NCBI GenBank assembly: GCA_913055155.1 | Contig: CAJXJR010000014.1 | Location: 42,362-106,361 of the forward strand | DNA from: an uncultured Erythrobacter sp. | GTDB lineage: Bacteria; Pseudomonadota; Alphaproteobacteria; Sphingomonadales; Sphingomonadaceae | DNA: 64,000 bases | Direction of reading: 5' to 3' | The notes under the pieces: generated by a model | Databases searched by the model: none | What the model was told of the DNA's origin: nothing | The model's input: only the letters and a program-made list of their open reading frames with translations | Made by a program: the position numbers and the translations under genes | In this document: positions 9,371 to 18,232 of the stretch, piece after piece | How positions within the stretch are numbered: position 1 is the first letter of the stretch | How the letters are laid out: each line of letters starts with the position of its first letter

Positions 9371-9623
9371 GGATATCAGGTCCTGCGATTGCTTGTCTGT
9401 TTTCGTGCGAGGGCGCGATGTGCAGGTTGCGGCCCAGCATTTCAAGGGGCGCATTACAAGGCCCTGGCCCGTTCAGCCTGTTGAAGGATTTGCCCTGCCA
9501 TGCAGCAGCATCGCTTTTTCAACCGACACGGCGCCGTCTGCCTTGCCTAGGCCGGGAAGCCGGGTTAGCCCTTTCCCATCGTGGTGCTCACACACCAATC
9601 GCTTCAAATTCCGGGTCTATTTC

Positions 9624-11051
9624 ATGCGCACATCGAAGATCGCCCTTTCGCTGGCCTGCCTTGGCATGGTGGTTTCCTGCGGTGGCGGGGGCACGCCCAC
9701 ACCGACGGCCACAGTCGCGCCCACACCGACACCCACGCCAACGCCCACTACCTCCACCTGTTCGCTGGAAAGCCGCCAGCAGTTCGTGGCAGACGTGATG
9801 GACGAGTGGTATCTCTTCCCCACGCTGCTCGACACCACGGTGAACCCGGCCAATTTCAACGATGTGCAAAGCTATATCGATGCGCTCGTCGCCCCTGCGC
9901 GGGCAGAGAGCAAGGATCGCTATTTCAGCTACATTACCTCGATCGCGGAAGAGAACGCCTTCTTCAACAGCGGCTCCAGCGCGGGCTTCGGCTTCCGGCT
10001 GATCTACGACACCACCAACCGCCGGGTGTTCCTGGCCGAGACGTTCGACAATACGCCGGCGCTGGGCGCAAACCTTGAACGCGGGACGGAGCTGATTGCC
10101 GTCGGCACCAGCTCCACCGACCTCGAGACCATCAACAGCCTGATGGCCACCGGCGGGCCGCAGGCCGTGATCGATGCGCTGGGCCCGTCCGATCCCGGCG
10201 TTACCCGCGTGTTCGACGTGATCGATGCCAGCGGCGTACGGCGCGAGGTGAGCGTGACCAAGGCCGAATACGATCTGGATCCGGTGCCGCGTTACGGTGC
10301 CCAGATCATCAACGACGGTGGGCGGCAGGTCGGCTACCTGCGCCTGACGAACTTCATCAATGTCGCCATCGACGAACTGACTGCCGCCTTCGACGACTTC
10401 AAGGCCGCAGGCGTCACCGAACTGGTGATCGACCTGCGCTACAATGGCGGCGGCGGCATCAACGTGCTGGAACACTTTGCCGACATGATGGGTGCCGCTA
10501 CCGATGGCGAGGTGTTCGAGACGATCGCCTTCCGCGACAGCAAGTCCGCCAACGACGAGACCTATCGCTTTGCCGCGCAGGTGCAGTCGATCGCGCCCAC
10601 GCGCATTGCGTTCATCACCACCAGCGGGTCTGCCTCGGCCAGCGAGGCACTGATCAACGGCATGCAGCCCTATCTTGGCACCGACATGGCGCTGATCGGC
10701 GCCAACACGTTCGGCAAGCCGGTGGGCCAGTCGGCCTTCGACCTGACCGCCTGCGACGATCGCCTGCGGGTGGTTACCATCAAGCTGGAAAACGCCGACG
10801 GGCTGGGCGAGTATTTCGAAGGCCTGGCTGCTACCGTGCCCAATTCCTGCCGCGCCAACGACGATATCTTCCACGATTTCGGCGACCCGCAGGAAGACAT
10901 GCTGGCCACCGCGCTCGATTTCCTCGCCGGACGCGGCACCTGCACCCCGATTGCGGGCGGCCCTGCCACCACCCAGGCAATCGGTCGCGCGCTGCTGCAG
11001 CCCGAACGCCCGTCTTCGGTGATCGAGCACGAAGCGCCCGGCGTCTATTGA
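9624..11051 (+). CDS. S41 family peptidase, lipoprotein with Thr-Pro-rich linker
   Basis: Lipobox VVSCGGGG, PTPTPTPT linker, ELVIDLRYNGGGG, TTSGSASASEALINGM, NTFGKPVGQ. Confidence 0.9.
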   Translation: MRTSKIALSLACLGMVVSCGGGGTPTPTATVAPTPTPTPTPTTSTCSLESRQQFVADVMDEWYLFPTLLDTTVNPANFNDVQSYIDALVAPARAESKDRYFSYITSIAEENAFFNSGSSAGFGFRLIYDTTNRRVFLAETFDNTPALGANLERGTELIAVGTSSTDLETINSLMATGGPQAVIDALGPSDPGVTRVFDVIDASGVRREVSVTKAEYDLDPVPRYGAQIINDGGRQVGYLRLTNFINVAIDELTAAFDDFKAAGVTELVIDLRYNGGGGINVLEHFADMMGAATDGEVFETIAFRDSKSANDETYRFAAQVQSIAPTRIAFITTSGSASASEALINGMQPYLGTDMALIGANTFGKPVGQSAFDLTACDDRLRVVTIKLENADGLGEYFEGLAATVPNSCRANDDIFHDFGDPQEDMLATALDFLAGRGTCTPIAGGPATTQAIGRALLQPERPSSVIEHEAPGVY

Positions 11052-11072
11052 GGCTTGCGAGCGGGCGAGTCC

Positions 11073-11519
11073 TCAAGGCTCGCCCGGTCCTCCGGCTTGC
11101 GGCCTGTCGCCGTCCAGCCAGGCGCAGCCATTGCGCTGCTCGTTGCCGATCTGCAGCGTGGCGACATAGGGATAGGTGCGGTCGCTCATGCCGTCGGAAC
11201 AGCTGCCCGGCGTCACCGCCAGGTCGACCTCCTCGCCTTCCAGCGATCCGCTGAACGACACGCCGCCGCGCCCGGCAAAGCGGCCGACCGACAGGCGCTG
11301 CCCCTCGGTGTTCTCCGGCGTGGTGTAGGTGAACCAGCCGCCCTCCACCGTGCCGCCCCAGAACGGCTCGGTCCCGGTCAGGTGGATCACCGCGTCCTCT
11401 GCAATACCGGCATAGGCGCTTTCATCGCCGGTATCGCCGGGCACGTTGGCATTGTTGCCCTGCCCGCAGGCACTCAGCAGCAAGGCAGCCCCCGCCAGCA
11501 TCGTCACACGCAACTGCAT
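11073..11519 (-). CDS. Putative lipoprotein, COG3650-like
   Basis: Lipobox LLLSACGQ; TEPFWGG...; YPYVATL. Confidence 0.65.
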   Translation of the reverse strand: MQLRVTMLAGAALLLSACGQGNNANVPGDTGDESAYAGIAEDAVIHLTGTEPFWGGTVEGGWFTYTTPENTEGQRLSVGRFAGRGGVSFSGSLEGEEVDLAVTPGSCSDGMSDRTYPYVATLQIGNEQRNGCAWLDGDRPQAGGPGEP

Positions 11520-11536
11520 CGCAAACTCCCCTTGTT

Positions 11537-12001
11537 TCAGCCGGCCATCTGCGCCGCCACGCCCAGCAGGATCGTCGCCCCGCCCAGCCCCAGCGACAGC
11601 GGCACTCGCAGTGTCATCCACCAGGTCGGGCGGATCGTCACCAACCGGGCATCGACGAGGAAGCTGACCAGGATCCCCGCCCCCAACACGTAGAGCGATT
11701 GCCCCGGCCAGGTCGCCCCGAAAACCCACGGCGCGAAGGTGGCCAGCGCCAGCAGGCTGGGCGTGACCGAAGCCAACCACAGCCAACCGGGCGCGCGGCG
11801 CGCCTCGTCCGGAGAGCCTGCCGCCAGCCCCCACCACAGGCCGCCCAGGAAACTGAAGATCAGCGCAGCGTAGGCCCAGCCGATCGCCAGCGCGCTCCAG
11901 CGCCATTCGGGCGGCCCTACCCATGCAGCAGCAAGGCAGGCAAGTTGCGGCAGGAGTCCGGCAAAGCCGAGGTTGCGGGGGGAAGCTGGAACGGCGCTCA
12001 T
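11537..12001 (-). CDS. DUF3429 family membrane protein
   Basis: Multi-TM; GWAYAALIFSFLGGLWWGLA. Confidence 0.8.
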   Translation of the reverse strand: MSAVPASPRNLGFAGLLPQLACLAAAWVGPPEWRWSALAIGWAYAALIFSFLGGLWWGLAAGSPDEARRAPGWLWLASVTPSLLALATFAPWVFGATWPGQSLYVLGAGILVSFLVDARLVTIRPTWWMTLRVPLSLGLGGATILLGVAAQMAG

Positions 12002-12073
12002 GCCTGCGCCTGCTAGCGTCCTGCATCGCAAAAGGCCATGGGGCCCTTCGGCCGAAGTGCGCGGTCCCCGTAC

Positions 12074-12766
12074 CTAGTCGATGCTCACAGGCCCGCCGCC
12101 GTTGCCGCCGCAGGCGGTGTGCTGGCGCAGCAGCGCGCGTTCGTTGGGCACGGCAGGTGCAGACAGCGTGTACTGGAAGCCGGAGAAATTGTTGAACTGC
12201 AGCATGTCGCCGCCCGGTGCGCGATTGCGCGAGGTGAAGGCGGCATAGCGCTGTTCCAGCTGGTCCTCCGCCGCCTCCACGGCAGCGCCCGATGCGCCCG
12301 GCACCCGCCGCGTGATCCGGCGGATTTCCCAGCGGTGGCTGTTGGGATTGTCGGGGTCTGCCACCATCGACACCAGCACCGTGGTGGGGTTGCCGCTGCC
12401 CGACGTATAGGTGCCCTGCATGCTTTGCGTCTCGCACGCCGCGGTCACTCCGCGCATGCCCGCCAGCGCGCCATTATCGAACCGGCCATCGGCAAGGTAG
12501 CCGATGATGCCGCTGAAACTGCCACGATAGCGATTGTTGACGCCGTTGGTGTCACCCCGCCCCACCGAGCGCGTGCGCGAGGGGCCATCGCCCGACGTGC
12601 TCATCGCGGTATCCCAGGTGATGCCTTCCAGCGCGTCGATCCCGTCGCCCAGACACAGCCCGTCAAGGCAGGCGCGCCCGATCCGTTCGTATTCCTGCGC
12701 ATGGGCCACACCGGCCATGCCTGCCACACCCAGCGCCACCGCGCCCAAGACACTTGCAGATTTCAT
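12074..12766 (-). CDS. Secreted hypothetical protein
   Basis: Signal peptide MKSASVLGAVALGVAGMAGVAHAQ; 230 aa. Confidence 0.6.
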   Translation of the reverse strand: MKSASVLGAVALGVAGMAGVAHAQEYERIGRACLDGLCLGDGIDALEGITWDTAMSTSGDGPSRTRSVGRGDTNGVNNRYRGSFSGIIGYLADGRFDNGALAGMRGVTAACETQSMQGTYTSGSGNPTTVLVSMVADPDNPNSHRWEIRRITRRVPGASGAAVEAAEDQLEQRYAAFTSRNRAPGGDMLQFNNFSGFQYTLSAPAVPNERALLRQHTACGGNGGGPVSID

Positions 12767-12844
12767 GTCGTTCCCCCTCTCAATCCCCTGATTTCCCGGC
12801 ATCTCGGCACCGCCATGCAAACACGCGAGCGGCGCGCCGGTTGG

Positions 12845-13546
12845 TTACAGACCCAGCCCGTTCAGCAAGCCGCCCGCCGCATCCAGCGGATTGGCGCGCA
12901 GGTCGCGTTCCTCGTTGCCGATGTAGCGGAAAATGCCGTCCAGCCCCTGGTCGGTCACCGTCCGGTTCAGGCCATCGCGGCTGATCCCCAGCGCCGCCAG
13001 CCACGAATGATCGCCCTCCAGCCGCTCCAGCGTCCGGTAAGCGCCCAGCTGCGACAGTGCCCCGTCCACCAGCGGCATCAGCCGCGCGTGCAGGTGATCG
13101 TTGGAACTGCGCCGCAGGTAGTTGGTGGCGCCGGTATCCTCGCGCATGATGCCCGGCACGTCGGACAACTGCAGGTTGTCGATCGCTGCGCGGAAGATCG
13201 GCTTGGCCTCGCCCGCGGCGATCCCGGCGGCATCGTTCAGCGTGCGGGTCAGCCCGTCGAGCACGCCCATCTCGCCCGCTGCGCCTGCCAGCCTGCCCAG
13301 CAGGCCGGTGCGGCGCGAACTGTTGCCGACCAGCGGCAGGCCGATACGGATATCCTCGTCGTCGTAAAAGGCGCCCGGCTGCGCCAGCCGGTCCAGCGCG
13401 TTATCGCTGGCCTGCCCCAGCAAGTCGCCCAGGCCCAGCAATCCGCCGATGTTCTGCGCCTGCGCCATGCCGGGCATGGCCAGCGCCAGCGCGCCTGCCC
13501 CCATGCCGGTGATGACCTGTCGGCGATTGCGGTGATGGCAGGGCAT
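12845..13546 (-). CDS. DUF4197 family protein
   Basis: AKPIFRAAIDNLQLSDVPGIM...GATNYLRRSSND.L...M. Confidence 0.85.
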   Translation of the reverse strand: MPCHHRNRRQVITGMGAGALALAMPGMAQAQNIGGLLGLGDLLGQASDNALDRLAQPGAFYDDEDIRIGLPLVGNSSRRTGLLGRLAGAAGEMGVLDGLTRTLNDAAGIAAGEAKPIFRAAIDNLQLSDVPGIMREDTGATNYLRRSSNDHLHARLMPLVDGALSQLGAYRTLERLEGDHSWLAALGISRDGLNRTVTDQGLDGIFRYIGNEERDLRANPLDAAGGLLNGLGL

Positions 13547-13627
13547 GGCGCGAACTCCCTCTTGCAGCTGGCTGACAGTCTATGCCGGGTTTGCCGATTG
13601 GCCAAGCCCTTGGCGCCAGTGACAAAA

Positions 13628-13658
13628 AAGGGGCGAGCCTGCGCGAGGCCCGCCCCTT
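13628..13658 (-). terminator. Rho-independent terminator downstream of the fasciclin gene
   Basis: GGGGCG-GGCCT-CGCG-CAGGCT-CGCCCC-TTTTTT on minus strand. Confidence 0.65.
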
Positions 13659-13689
13659 CGTTCTTGCGTCTTTACCTGTGCGGCGCGCC

Positions 13690-14268
13690 TTACGGCATCA
13701 GCACCGTATCGATCACGTGGATGACGCCGTTCGAGGCATCGACATCGGTCGCGGTGACCGTGGCCGTATTGCCCTGCGCATCGGTAAGGGTCACCGTTTC
13801 GCCGTCGACCATGGCGGTCAGCGTGCCGCCGTTGACGGTCTCGATGGTGTAGCCACCTTCACCGGCGTCCACGATCGCGGCGACGAGGTCGGACGACATC
13901 ACTTCACCCGGCACCACGTGGTAGGTGAGGATGCTGCCCAGCGTGTCGGTATCTTCGGTGGTCAGCGTTTCCACCGTGCCTTCGGGCAGCGCGGCGAAGG
14001 CTTCGTTGGTGGGCGCGAAGACAGTGAACGGACCTTCGCCCGACAGCGTCTCACCAAGGCCGGCAGCGGTCACGGCGGTGACGAGGGTGGAGAAATCGGG
14101 GTTGCCCTGCGCCACTTCCACGATCGTGCCGGGCGTGGTGGCATCGGCGTTGACCATTTCATCGGCCATCGCGGCATCGTCTTCCATCGCACCATCGTCG
14201 GCAGCGCCCCCGCATGCGGCCAGGGTCAGCGCGGCGGCGGAAGCAGTGAGGATATGGAGAGTCTTCAT
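13690..14268 (-). CDS. Fasciclin domain lipoprotein
   Basis: LAACGG lipobox; FTVFAPTNEAFAALPEGTVETL, LTYHVVPGEV, NGVIHVIDTVLMP. Confidence 0.92.
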   Translation of the reverse strand: MKTLHILTASAAALTLAACGGAADDGAMEDDAAMADEMVNADATTPGTIVEVAQGNPDFSTLVTAVTAAGLGETLSGEGPFTVFAPTNEAFAALPEGTVETLTTEDTDTLGSILTYHVVPGEVMSSDLVAAIVDAGEGGYTIETVNGGTLTAMVDGETVTLTDAQGNTATVTATDVDASNGVIHVIDTVLMP

Positions 14269-14491
14269 AATTGGCGTCCTTGTTTGCGGTTGATCGGATG
14301 ACTGGCGGCACACGGCACGTCCGGGTTCACCCGTTCACCGCAGCAATCGCTTTGCGCGCCCGCTTGTTCCGGCACTGGACGAAAGCACGTATCGGGCCGC
14401 GCGGATGGCAGCGGACCAGCTATCGCTTGCCGCGCCATGCCCCGCCTGCCATGGCGCCGGCAACACAGATGGGCGCGAAGGAGATCCGCCG

Positions 14492-14800
14492 ATGGCTGCC
14501 GACGACGAAGACTACGTTTACGACGAGGAAAGCGGCGAATGGATGCCTGCTTCCGAATTCGCCGCCAGGCAGGCCGCTGCCAACCAGGTGGAGGTTCGCG
14601 ATGCCGTGGGTAACCTGCTGGCCGATGGCGACCAGGTGACGCTGGTGAAAGACCTGGAGGTCAAGGGCGCGGGCCAGACGCTGAAGCAGGGCACGCTGAT
14701 CAAGTCGATACGCCTGACCGGCGATGCGCAGGAAATCGACTGCAAGTACCCCGGCATCAAGGGCCTGGTGCTACGCGCGGAGTTTGTGAAGAAGCGCTAG
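14492..14800 (+). CDS. PhnA/YjdM-like protein, C-terminal domain
   Basis: VEVRDAVGNLLADGDQVTLVKDLEVKGAGQTLKQGTLIKSIRLTGD..IDCK..G.KGLVLRAEFVKK; RBS gaaggaga upstream. Confidence 0.75.
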   Translation: MAADDEDYVYDEESGEWMPASEFAARQAAANQVEVRDAVGNLLADGDQVTLVKDLEVKGAGQTLKQGTLIKSIRLTGDAQEIDCKYPGIKGLVLRAEFVKKR

Positions 14801-14810
14801 GCGCAGCCGC

Positions 14811-15245
14811 TTACGCGCCATCCTCCTGCTCGATCACCCGGCCCAGCACGCGGACCTGGCAGCGATCGACACGGTCACCGAAGGCATCGGGCACCAGCAA
14901 GGTTTCCACGTCGCCCGTACACACGCTGATGCGGCTGCGTGTGTCGAGCGCGATCATGCGGCTGAAATCCAGCTCCGGGCACGATCCAATCGTCTCCAAC
15001 AGCCATTCCTCGCGCACGCCGGTGCGTACATACAGCCGTTCCTGGCTGCGGGGACCGTTCGGGGCGTTCGAATAACCGTTGATCTCGCGCGTGAAGAAGC
15101 ACGCGCGGCTGGTATCGATGTTGGCCAGGCTGGCGTCGTATTCGTCCGCCTCGGGCCCTTCCATCGGCGCGCAGGCAGCAAGGCCCAGCGCAGCCGCAAC
15201 CAGCGCGGCGCCGGCAAGGGCAGGTTTCGCGATAATAGAGGTCAT
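14811..15245 (-). CDS. DUF6491-like lipoprotein, copy 1
   Basis: RACFFTREINGYSNAP...RLYVRTG.RE.WLLETIGSCPELDFSRMIALDTRSRISVCTGD. Confidence 0.7.
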   Translation of the reverse strand: MTSIIAKPALAGAALVAAALGLAACAPMEGPEADEYDASLANIDTSRACFFTREINGYSNAPNGPRSQERLYVRTGVREEWLLETIGSCPELDFSRMIALDTRSRISVCTGDVETLLVPDAFGDRVDRCQVRVLGRVIEQEDGA

Positions 15246-15548
15246 GTTCCTTCTCCTCTTTTTCCAAACGACGGCCCTGACCCAGTGTTCCATTGTCACA
15301 GCATCCTGTCGCAAGCCTGACACATCCCGCAACAAAGTGCTGGCAAAGGATACGCTGCGGGCGCACGACGATTCGCGCAGCAATGCAACGGACCGGGAAA
15401 ACCACCCTGCCCCCGGTCCTCGAGCCCGCCGGACAGCGGGTAACGCCAGGCATGGCGGTAGATCGCACCAGCACCCCAGCGGCGTTGGTGCGATCCTCGT
15501 TTGGGGCCTGCTTGCAAGCGGCTGCGATCTCCCGCACATTCCCACGCG

Positions 15549-15899
15549 ATGAGCAGGCAATACACCTCATTCGCCGCGTTCTGGCCGTTCTATCTGCGCG
15601 AGCATTCACAGCCTCGCACGCGCGCGCTGCACTATCTGGGCACCACGCTGGTGTTCGCCGTGGCCCTGTTTGCGCTGTTGACGGGGCGCTGGTGGTTCCT
15701 GCTGGCCATGCCGGTGGCCGGCTATTTCTTCGCCTGGCTCGCCCACTTCACGGTGGAAAAGAACCGCCCGGCCACTTTCACCTATCCGCTGTGGAGCCTG
15801 GCTGCGGATTTCCGCATGTACGGGTTGTGGCTTACCGGGCGCCTGCAGCCCGAGCTTGACCGTGCGGGGGTAAGCAAGGGCGAAGGCCGGCCCGGCTAG
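15549..15899 (+). CDS. DUF962/Mpo1-like membrane protein
   Basis: [27 protein letters not shown]...[20 protein letters not shown]. Confidence 0.85.
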
Positions 15900-15902
15900 G
15901 CC

Positions 15903-16304
15903 CTAGCCCAGCACCGCGTCGGCCAGCTTGGTGTCGAGATACTCGCGCACCTCCACGATCTTGCCGCCTGCCAGCTTGAAGACGAAGCAATAGTCGTTGG
16001 CGTAGACCTTGCCGTCCACCGTGTCGGCATGGCCCTTCGCCAGCACCACCACGTGATCGCCATCGGCCAGCACCAGTTCGGGGATGTTCAGGTATGGCCC
16101 GGTGAACTTCGCGAACAGCGGGCCCATCAGGTCGCGTTCCACATTGGCAAGCCCGCTGACTTCCTTCGACCAGTTGGACGTGCCCATCACCCGCCAGGTG
16201 ATGCTTTCGTCGAACAGCGGCAGGAAGGCGCTGGGATCGCCATGTTCCAGCTTGGCAAAGGCCTGTGTCAGCAAAGCGCGGTTGGTTTCGGTGGTGTCGC
16301 TCAT
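15903..16304 (-). CDS. SnoaL-like / NTF2-fold protein
   Basis: ETNRALLTQAFAKLEHGDPSAFLPLFDESITWRV. Confidence 0.85.
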   Translation of the reverse strand: MSDTTETNRALLTQAFAKLEHGDPSAFLPLFDESITWRVMGTSNWSKEVSGLANVERDLMGPLFAKFTGPYLNIPELVLADGDHVVVLAKGHADTVDGKVYANDYCFVFKLAGGKIVEVREYLDTKLADAVLG

Positions 16305-16915
16305 GTATCGTCCCCTGTTGCAAACCGCTCCGCCGGCCAGCTGACCAGCAGCGCGCCGCGAAGGTCGCCCGGTTCGAAGCCGGTGGCAAGGTCATCGGGG
16401 TAAAGTTCCGCAATGCGTACAGCCAGCGCGGGGTCGACATCGGTGCCGTGGCAAGTGGAGCACGGCTGTTCCTGCATCGGTATCGCGCGCAGGTAATTCA
16501 CCCGCGCCATCTCCCCTTCGCCGCTGCGCCAGACCGTCTCGGCGGGCTGGCCGTCGACCATGGGCTGCCCGGCGAGGCGGGCATAGTGGGGCGCGATATC
16601 ATCCGTAACGCGGCCATCGGGGTTGCGGTTGCGATCTGACACCCGGCTGACCTGCGCCCCGCTGGCTGCCGACCGTTCGGCGGCAATCTGCGGCGCGACC
16701 GCGTGGCACACCTCCACCCCCTGCATCGGCCCGCCTTCGGCGAACGCCGCGGCAAGCTGGGCCTGCAAGGCCATGCCGTACTCCTGCGCAACCGGCTGCG
16801 AGGCCGCGATCACGGCAGCCTCGTCCAGCGCGGCAGGCGGCGCATCGGGTGCTTCGGCCTGGTTGCAGGCCGCCAGCAGCAGCGGCGCGGCGACCAGCAG
16901 TTGGGTGCGGATCAT
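16301..16915 (-). CDS. DUF3365 family c-type heme lipoprotein
   Basis: CSTCH heme motif; VSDRNRNP; AIPMQEQPCSTCHG; 4-bp overlap with next gene. Confidence 0.8.
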   Translation of the reverse strand: MIRTQLLVAAPLLLAACNQAEAPDAPPAALDEAAVIAASQPVAQEYGMALQAQLAAAFAEGGPMQGVEVCHAVAPQIAAERSAASGAQVSRVSDRNRNPDGRVTDDIAPHYARLAGQPMVDGQPAETVWRSGEGEMARVNYLRAIPMQEQPCSTCHGTDVDPALAVRIAELYPDDLATGFEPGDLRGALLVSWPAERFATGDDT

Positions 16916-17005: not shown

Positions 17006-17395
17006 TCACTCGTCCTCCATCTTGCCCAGCACGCGGGCAGTGCAGCGCTGGGGTATCCCGCCCAGCGACTGTGGAATCACCAGCGTCACCGTATCCCCGG
17101 TGCAGATGCTCGACTGGTGGTCCGGATCGATGCCGATCTGCAGCGACCAGTCGAGATCCGGGCAACTGCCCATCGTTTCGAGCAGGTAGCGATCGCGCGC
17201 CCCGACATTGACGTAGAGCCTGTCGCCACGCGGGCCGTCGGGCGCTTCGTTGTAGCCATTGACCTGGCTCATGAAGAAGCACGCGCGCTCGGTCGAAAGG
17301 CCGGCGATCGGCTCGGGCGGTTCGGCACCATCCTGCACGCAGGCCGTGGCGGCCAGCGCCAGCAGGGGGGTCAGGACAACAACGCTCTTCAACAT
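17006..17395 (-). CDS. DUF6491-like lipoprotein, copy 2
   Basis: RACFFMSQVNGYNEAPDGPRGDRLYVNVGARDRYLLETMGSCPDLDWSLQIGID; homologous to 14811-15245. Confidence 0.7.
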   Translation of the reverse strand: MLKSVVVLTPLLALAATACVQDGAEPPEPIAGLSTERACFFMSQVNGYNEAPDGPRGDRLYVNVGARDRYLLETMGSCPDLDWSLQIGIDPDHQSSICTGDTVTLVIPQSLGGIPQRCTARVLGKMEDE

Positions 17396-17566
17396 CGCAC
17401 TTCTCCCACTTGTAGTGGAACTCTGCCTAAGGCCTGCCCGCCGCCGTGCATTGATACGCGTCAACAACCTGAACCGGGCCGTATACGAGGCGTTTGGGGC
17501 ATGTTCAGATTTGCCGTGCAAGGGTCCCTGGGAGTTCACCGAGAATGGCGAAGGGGGGAACCTGCC

Positions 17567-18232
17567 ATGAAACGCGTATTTCGAACCAGCCGCCGATCCT
17601 TTATCGCCCGCGTCGTGGGCGCCGCAGCAGCGGGCAGCACCGGCATGTTCTCCACCGCTGCACGGGCCCAAGTGACCGATGCCGACAGCGGCCGCTATGC
17701 CGATCCCGCCGGTCGCGGACGCGGCAGCGGGCTGACCGACAGCGATTCCGGCGCCTATGCCGACCCGGCGGGCAACGGGCGCGGCGGCTACAACTCCGGC
17801 ATTACCGACAGCGACAGCGGCGCCTATGCCGATCCTGCAGGCAATGGCCGGGGCCGCAACATCACCGACAGCGATTCCGGCCGCAACGCCGACCCGGCGG
17901 GGCGTGGACGCGGCAGCGGCTATACCGACAGCGACAGCGGCCAGTACGCCGACCCCGCAGGCAACGGACGCGGGCGCAGCGGCGTGACCGACAGCGACAC
18001 GGGCGCCAATCGCGATCCCGCAGGCCGTGGCCGGGGCAGCGGGATCACCGACAGCGATTCCGGTCGCAATGCCGACCCGGCAGGACGCGGGCGCGGCGGA
18101 TACCGCAGCGGCGTGACCGACAGCGACTCCGGCTCCTACGCCGATCCCGCCGGCAACGGTCGCGGGCGCGGCTTTACCGACAGCGACGTGGGCCAGTACG
18201 CCGACCCGGTGGGGCGTGGGCGCGGCGTGTAG
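17567..18232 (+). CDS. Tat-exported repeat protein with nine (T)DSDSGxxADPAG(N/R)GRG repeats
   Basis: SRRSFIAR twin-arginine N-terminus followed by nine 20-23 aa repeats to the C-terminus. Confidence 0.8.
   Translation: MKRVFRTSRRSFIARVVGAAAAGSTGMFSTAARAQVTDADSGRYADPAGRGRGSGLTDSDSGAYADPAGNGRGGYNSGITDSDSGAYADPAGNGRGRNITDSDSGRNADPAGRGRGSGYTDSDSGQYADPAGNGRGRSGVTDSDTGANRDPAGRGRGSGITDSDSGRNADPAGRGRGGYRSGVTDSDSGSYADPAGNGRGRGFTDSDVGQYADPVGRGRGV
17674..18229 (+). repeat. In-frame tandem repeats (about 60-69 bp units) encoding the TDSDSG repeats
   Basis: Nine units with synonymous variation; read directly. Confidence 0.85.

Follow-up and report, generated by a model that had tools for sequence, protein, structure and literature searches.

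An open reading frame at 17567–18232 on the forward strand of the window (the whole 64,000-nucleotide stretch of DNA that was analyzed) encodes, as judged from its translation and its orthologs, a 221-amino acid repeat protein (plus stop) that is predicted to be exported by the Tat pathway. Reading of the adjacent DNA suggests a probable ribosome-binding site, AAGGGGGGA (17551–17559, +), which is GGA-rich and lies 7 bases 5' of the ATG. The protein begins with a twin-arginine signal peptide (17567–17668, +) that contains TSRRSFIARVVGAAAAGS, with the arginine pair at residues 9 and 10, and that is probably cleaved by signal peptidase I at the predicted site ARA-QV. The remainder consists of nine repeat units (17675–18223, +), whose 16-residue cores (TD.DSG..ADPAG.GR) start at residues 37, 57, 80, 100, 120, 141, 161, 184, and 204 and are joined by linkers of 4–7 residues. 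One repeat peptide is TDSDSGSYADPAGNGRG, and the nine near-identical Asp/Gly/Arg copies have the consensus TDSDSGxYADPAGNGR. When compared with the translation, the initial annotation of this DNA was exact in describing a twin-arginine leader followed by nine repeats, including all nine copies that it listed. The 5' neighbor of the repeat gene, a DUF6491 gene, is on the opposite strand, and its 3' neighbor is convergent; the repeat gene therefore looks monocistronic.

Two DUF6491 lipoprotein-like paralogs are found a few kb apart in this region (14811–15290, −, and 17006–17398, −), where they flank other envelope-type genes. A probable envelope gene cluster (9618–16915) contains genes for an S41 peptidase, a DUF4197 protein, a fasciclin lipoprotein, and Mpo1-like, SnoaL-like, and Tll0287-like proteins, and in other Aurantiacibacter the S41 peptidase region lies, in synteny, beside the repeat gene of type A. 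The window neighbors (DUF4197, fasciclin, DUF6491, Mpo1-like, SnoaL, and Tll0287-like) were rejected as partners of the repeat protein, as gene-neighbor clustering recovered none of them beside the repeats beyond the genus.

Analysis of the array with TRF (17695–18187) gave a unit identity of 64% in the DNA. Between the nine 16-residue cores, the pooled pS was 0.52 and the pooled pN was 0.16, corresponding to a dN/dS of ∼0.20. Because this ratio is low and the DNA units are only 64% alike, the peptide is under purifying selection while the DNA has drifted. A dN/dS that is not near 1 agrees with the earlier proposal that selection on the protein, rather than recent slippage, has kept the units alike.

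The repeat protein is one member of a family. We collected 171 distinct relatives, each with 3–14 units (median 7), from Alphaproteobacteria (Aurantiacibacter, Parasphingopyxis, Maricaulales, Hyphomonadaceae, and Brevundimonas) and from two Myxococcota metagenome-assembled genomes (MAGs). Whole-genome searches found relatives in 28 of the 40 sampled genomes of the window's genus. A scan of GTDB species genomes yielded 123 confirmed stretches and 79 loci that were kept, from Parasphingopyxis, Maricaulis, Oceanicaulis, Hyphobacterium, Woodsholea, Glycocaulis, Marinicauda, Hyphomonadaceae, Brevundimonas, and two Myxococcales MAGs. Occurrence is scattered, with relatives in 7 of 276 genera of the class sample and 4 of 96 genera of the family sample, often as several tandem copies. 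Since the repeat recurs in many independent species, it is not a product of chance. One locus assigned to "Anaerolineae" (L083) is probably misbinned, since the enzyme of that genome (see below) is nearly identical to an alphaproteobacterial one in the enzyme tree. Relatives were absent from the viral contigs, plasmids, and phages searched, so a mobile or phage origin is unsupported. The initial annotation recognized no named family, and in line with this, no Pfam or NCBIfam model matched the repeats above its cut-off. PADLOC and PDB sequence searches with the repeat protein returned nothing useful, and weak ClfB and PDB matches to it were judged compositional. Clustering of gene neighbors also brought up ruvABC, tol genes, and tkt/pgi, which were rejected as partners because they reflect housekeeping synteny in Maricaulales and Hyphomonadaceae and are absent elsewhere.

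A twin arginine precedes the repeats in 170 of the 171 relatives, the sole exception being a fragment that follows an in-frame stop, and 167 of the 171 family members have an RRx[FLVM] signal with a hydrophobic stretch. These leaders, together with the TatC encoded in the window's genome, are consistent with the Tat export that the initial annotation had predicted. A lipobox is present at the end of the leader in 58 of the 171 proteins, including most other Aurantiacibacter orthologs of the window gene; the window protein has ARA-Q at this position. At two loci (L083:5920–6603 and L096:3431–4114), a PG_binding_1 domain is fused C-terminally to the repeats (E ∼1e-18). The family would thus be localized to the envelope, a prediction supported by the Tat leaders, the lipoboxes, and the PG_binding_1 fusion in two loci. 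One Maricaulis repeat gene (L043:6001–6603) is broken by an in-frame stop and is probably a recent pseudogene or an assembly error.

Scoring of a unit profile on all of the proteins identified 954 units, which conform to T-D-S-D-[ST]-G-x-[YN]-A-D-P-[AV]-G-x-G-R. Across these units, the Asp residues at positions 2, 4, and 10 had zero substitutions, G6 and G15 were each conserved in >99%, and R16 was conserved in 95%; the seed units were selected for having these conserved residues, and a unit with a single change would still score well above the threshold. Position 16 is Gln in some units (e.g. in L108), and a shorter form of the unit, TDSDPNDRAGYGR, has three residues fewer. Mature chains contain 25% Gly, 14% Asp, and 11% Arg, with only 0.2% Glu, 0.1% Lys, and 0.5% His; they use Asp and hardly Glu, and Arg and hardly Lys. 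Val, Ile, Leu, Met, Phe, and Trp together account for 5.6% of mature residues, which leaves no conventional hydrophobic core; the chain is therefore disordered unless metal ions and disulfides hold it.

The number of cysteines in the repeat region is even in 169 of the 171 proteins: 75 proteins have none, 2 have one, 80 have two, 5 have four, 1 has six, 7 have eight, and 1 has fourteen. In one of the two odd-numbered proteins (L082), the second Cys lies just before the first unit. Among 128 consecutive Cys pairs, 92 enclose a single unit exactly (C-TDSDSGxYADPxGxGRx-C), and ∼20 connect equivalent positions in adjacent units, 21–23 residues apart; these counts are inflated by related sequences, and the pattern still recurs in separate lineages. 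Pairs that are 45–48 residues apart, in some Aurantiacibacter paralogs, do not fit a one-unit loop. From the pairing of cysteines it follows that the chain brings residues roughly one unit apart into proximity and becomes oxidized once exported, and the units look like loops that could be closed by a disulfide.

The unit period is mostly 19–27 residues and the linkers are variable, which disfavors a strict solenoid. The initial suggestion of an extended or solenoid-like repeat thus holds in part, in that cysteine pairing indirectly favors a loop or solenoid-like unit whereas the variable linkers speak against a strict solenoid. An AlphaFold model had been put forward as a check on this suggestion, and it gave no confident fold for the window protein: the AlphaFold2 model, built from 32 aligned sequences, has a pLDDT of 46 and a mature part without secondary structure. 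The model of a Cys-rich Brevundimonas relative (pLDDT 54, pTM 0.49) has mostly one strand per repeat and is, like that of the window protein, unreliable. With pLDDT values of only 46 and 54, full disorder is possible.

The main feature of the family is the co-occurrence of a JmjC_2 oxygenase, which lies beyond what the initial annotation could see. In the window's genome, the enzyme is encoded by an open reading frame of 400 amino acids (G000:C6:74826–76025) that is located outside the window. A second repeat gene (L146:7100–7549, −) is followed on the same strand by the enzyme open reading frame after a gap of 74 bp. The enzyme matches JmjC_2 (PF08007) with E = 4e-26 and 91.5 bits, compared with a Pfam cut-off of 22, and its nearest solved structures are NO66 and MINA53 (E ∼1e-25 to 1e-22); RoxA is a distant homolog. 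The predicted Fe ligands H148, D150, and H211 (an HxD...H triad) are invariant in 83 enzymes, as are Y136 and S221, which correspond to the NO66-type Tyr/Ser pair in an alignment to NO66. At the three substrate-pocket positions compared, the clade has N134, Y136, and S221 where Escherichia coli RoxA has L111, I113, and A195. No leader is evident in the enzyme copy read from the window's genome. A separate alphaproteobacterial JmjC_2 group (∼60–103 bits; L179–L186 and others) is widespread and is not tied to the repeats.

Searches with tblastn recovered the enzyme at 57 of the 79 named loci of the repeats. At 56 of the 79, the enzyme gene follows the repeat gene on the same strand, often overlapping it or lying within ∼150 bp, and at one more (L092) it is divergent from the repeats. 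The window gene has no enzyme neighbor, and six enzyme-less loci are its Aurantiacibacter orthologs. For 20 of the enzyme-less loci, the enzyme is encoded elsewhere in 18 of the 19 genomes concerned, and the exception is a MAG that is 74% complete. In a sample of relatives, a strong enzyme match was present in 28 of 29 repeat genomes compared with 0 of 72 others; in the family sample, both genes occur in the same 15 of 301 genomes and none of the other 286 has the enzyme; and in the class sample, the enzyme is present in all 11 repeat genomes and in one enzyme-only genome (G302). When these genomes were pooled and each counted once (n = 754), 45 had both genes, 1 had only the repeats, 1 had only the enzyme, and 707 had neither. 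Hence, 45 of the 47 genomes with either gene have both, with the qualification that the samples share ancestry and so represent fewer effective independent cases. The pairing spans Sphingomonadales, Maricaulales, Hyphomonadaceae, Brevundimonas, and Myxococcota.

The enzymes paired with repeats also form a distinct clade. With the enzyme of the window's genome as the query, scores are bimodal (at least ∼148 bits for the clade and no more than 103 for the next homologs), and in a tree of 93 enzymes, those linked to repeats, defined as scoring >140 bits and thus including that of G302, occupy one side of a branch with support of 100/99. An M48 peptidase-like open reading frame precedes the gene of the G302 enzyme (L177/L187, G302:C226), and the contig stops shortly past this enzyme gene; a search with another profile found no divergent repeats in this genome. 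A genome has up to 10 repeat-protein matches and one strong enzyme. No third gene, such as one for a protease, a recognition protein, or a transporter, was found to be conserved beside the pair across lineages.

Based on this genomic evidence, the window gene likely encodes an exported protein on which a dedicated protein-hydroxylation system operates, with the enzyme acting on the repeats. The JmjC_2 oxygenase would most likely hydroxylate each repeat in the cytoplasm, a site of action suggested by its need for 2-oxoglutarate, Fe(II), and O2 and by the lack of an evident leader. The Tat pathway is able to export folded or modified proteins, and the modified protein would be exported by this route and end up soluble in the periplasm or, in many relatives, as a lipoprotein. 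In the oxidizing envelope, each unit would behave as a closed loop, which a disulfide would lock in many relatives, and the units would probably be organized by bound metal ions such as Ca2+. The protein may serve there as a repetitive structural or metal-binding component.

Our first candidate for modification is an Asp, one of the three that are invariant in T-D-S-D-S-G-x-Y-A-D. In NO66, Tyr328 and Ser421 hold the side chain of the substrate His (PMC4556315). His was rejected as the modified residue since it makes up only 0.5% of mature residues. Asp β-hydroxylation is favored because the pocket is of the NO66 type, Arg analogs are inert toward NO66 and MINA53 (PMC9994133), His is nearly absent, and the invariant hydrogen-bonding side chains are those of Asp. 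The choice of Asp, which draws on invariance and a partial match of the active site, has to be set beside the 95% conservation of Arg16; provided that the repeats are modified at all, Asp β-hydroxylation would seem about as probable as all other modifications together, and Arg hydroxylation clearly less so. A hydroxy-Asp near D-x-D would suit metal binding, although this is conjecture. The complete proposal, that a dedicated JmjC oxygenase puts β-hydroxy-Asp in every unit and that, after Tat export, this residue together with metal ions and disulfides forms a structural or metal-binding layer that depends on O2, is offered tentatively, as somewhat less likely than not.

The enzyme could instead hydroxylate the invariant Arg (or the Asn or Tyr) of the Gly-rich GxGRG, as RoxA does on uL16. 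RoxA is a distant homolog of the enzyme, its Gly-rich target (VRMGKGKGS for RoxA/YcfD, PMC5862935) resembles GNGRGRG, and R16 is 95% conserved; however, the enzymes have the NO66-type Tyr/Ser pair and lack the RoxA residues, Arg analogs are neither accepted by nor inhibitory to NO66 and MINA53 (PMC9994133), and position 16 is Gln in some units, so we regard this alternative as possible but unlikely. Somewhat less probable still is a functional link in which the repeats are not the substrate, for example if they store or sense metal and the enzyme acts on another, co-regulated target. Genomic linkage alone cannot separate a substrate from a partner, and the nearest solved enzymes target ribosomal proteins. 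The presence of one strong enzyme per genome alongside up to 10 repeat matches, the persistence of the coupling when the genes are unlinked, and the chemical uniformity of the repeats (Asp not Glu, Arg not Lys) all argue for the repeats as the substrate.

The least probable of these explanations, and one that we consider improbable, is that the protein is an unmodified envelope repeat, either disordered or folded by calcium and akin in kind to thrombospondin type 3 or RTX repeats, with the oxygenase being incidental. The DxDx(S/T)GxxxD pattern does resemble Ca2+ loops, a VILMFW content of 5.6% is like that of Ca2+-organized repeats, and the AlphaFold models are of low confidence. Against this, the unit has Gly where the calcium motif has Asp at position 5, the repeats have no Pfam match to TSP_3, RTX, or EF-hand, and it would be left unexplained why they co-occur almost perfectly with one oxygenase clade.

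Protein hydroxylation by 2-oxoglutarate oxygenases is itself already known, and JmjC hydroxylases have been described in ribosome modification (PMC4295552, PMC6006756). As far as could be tested, the association of a JmjC_2 clade with Tat-exported repeat proteins is new, and neither the repeat nor its pairing with the enzyme turned up in the open-access papers searched. If the proposal is correct, JmjC protein hydroxylation extends from ribosomes to exported bacterial repeat proteins, a clade of uncharacterized oxygenases gains a substrate, and the bacterial targets of such enzymes become directly testable. It would also provide a natural example of a protein that receives a covalent modification in the cytoplasm and is then exported by Tat.

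The partner enzyme shares the PF08007 family and the Fe(II) ligands with NO66 (RIOX1), MINA53 (RIOX2), and RoxA (YcfD), and it shares the substrate-pocket Tyr and Ser with the first two, a pair that RoxA lacks. The known JmjC_2 members act on His or Arg residues in ribosomal proteins, which they hydroxylate, whereas this clade pairs with exported repeats that are almost free of His, and because of that low content (0.5% of residues), we do not class it as a histidyl hydroxylase of the repeats. As in RiPP pathways, where JmjC hydroxylases occur in gene clusters (e.g. the predicted BpmG of biphenomycin, PMC12257519), an encoded substrate adjoins a JmjC-type hydroxylase; here, however, the putative substrate is a large Tat-exported repeat protein and no conserved third gene was found beside the pair. 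Proteins with Dx[DN]xDG calcium loops (as in EF-hand, TSP3, and integrin loops; motif as defined in PMC3123361), thrombospondin type 3 repeats, and RTX repeats are likewise built of short tandem units that are rich in Asp and Gly and poor in hydrophobic residues, with a D-x-D and a third Asp. In the long unit, Asp is at loop positions 1 and 3 and Gly at position 5, so that it agrees with Dx[DN]xDG only in part, and the metal binding raised in the initial annotation is a possibility. The repeats differ from all three in lacking the position-5 Asp and a profile match and in their unit length and linker pattern. In animals, AspH acting on calcium-binding EGF-like domains, which are Asp/Asn-containing and disulfide-bearing repeats (PMC7278358), and the collagen hydroxylases are also 2-oxoglutarate oxygenases that modify extracellular repeats before export. 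The system proposed here would be a bacterial counterpart of this extracellular-matrix hydroxylation of collagen and EGF-type repeats, one that differs in its oxygenase family, in its unrelated repeats, and in using the bacterial cytoplasm and the Tat pathway where animals use the endoplasmic reticulum.
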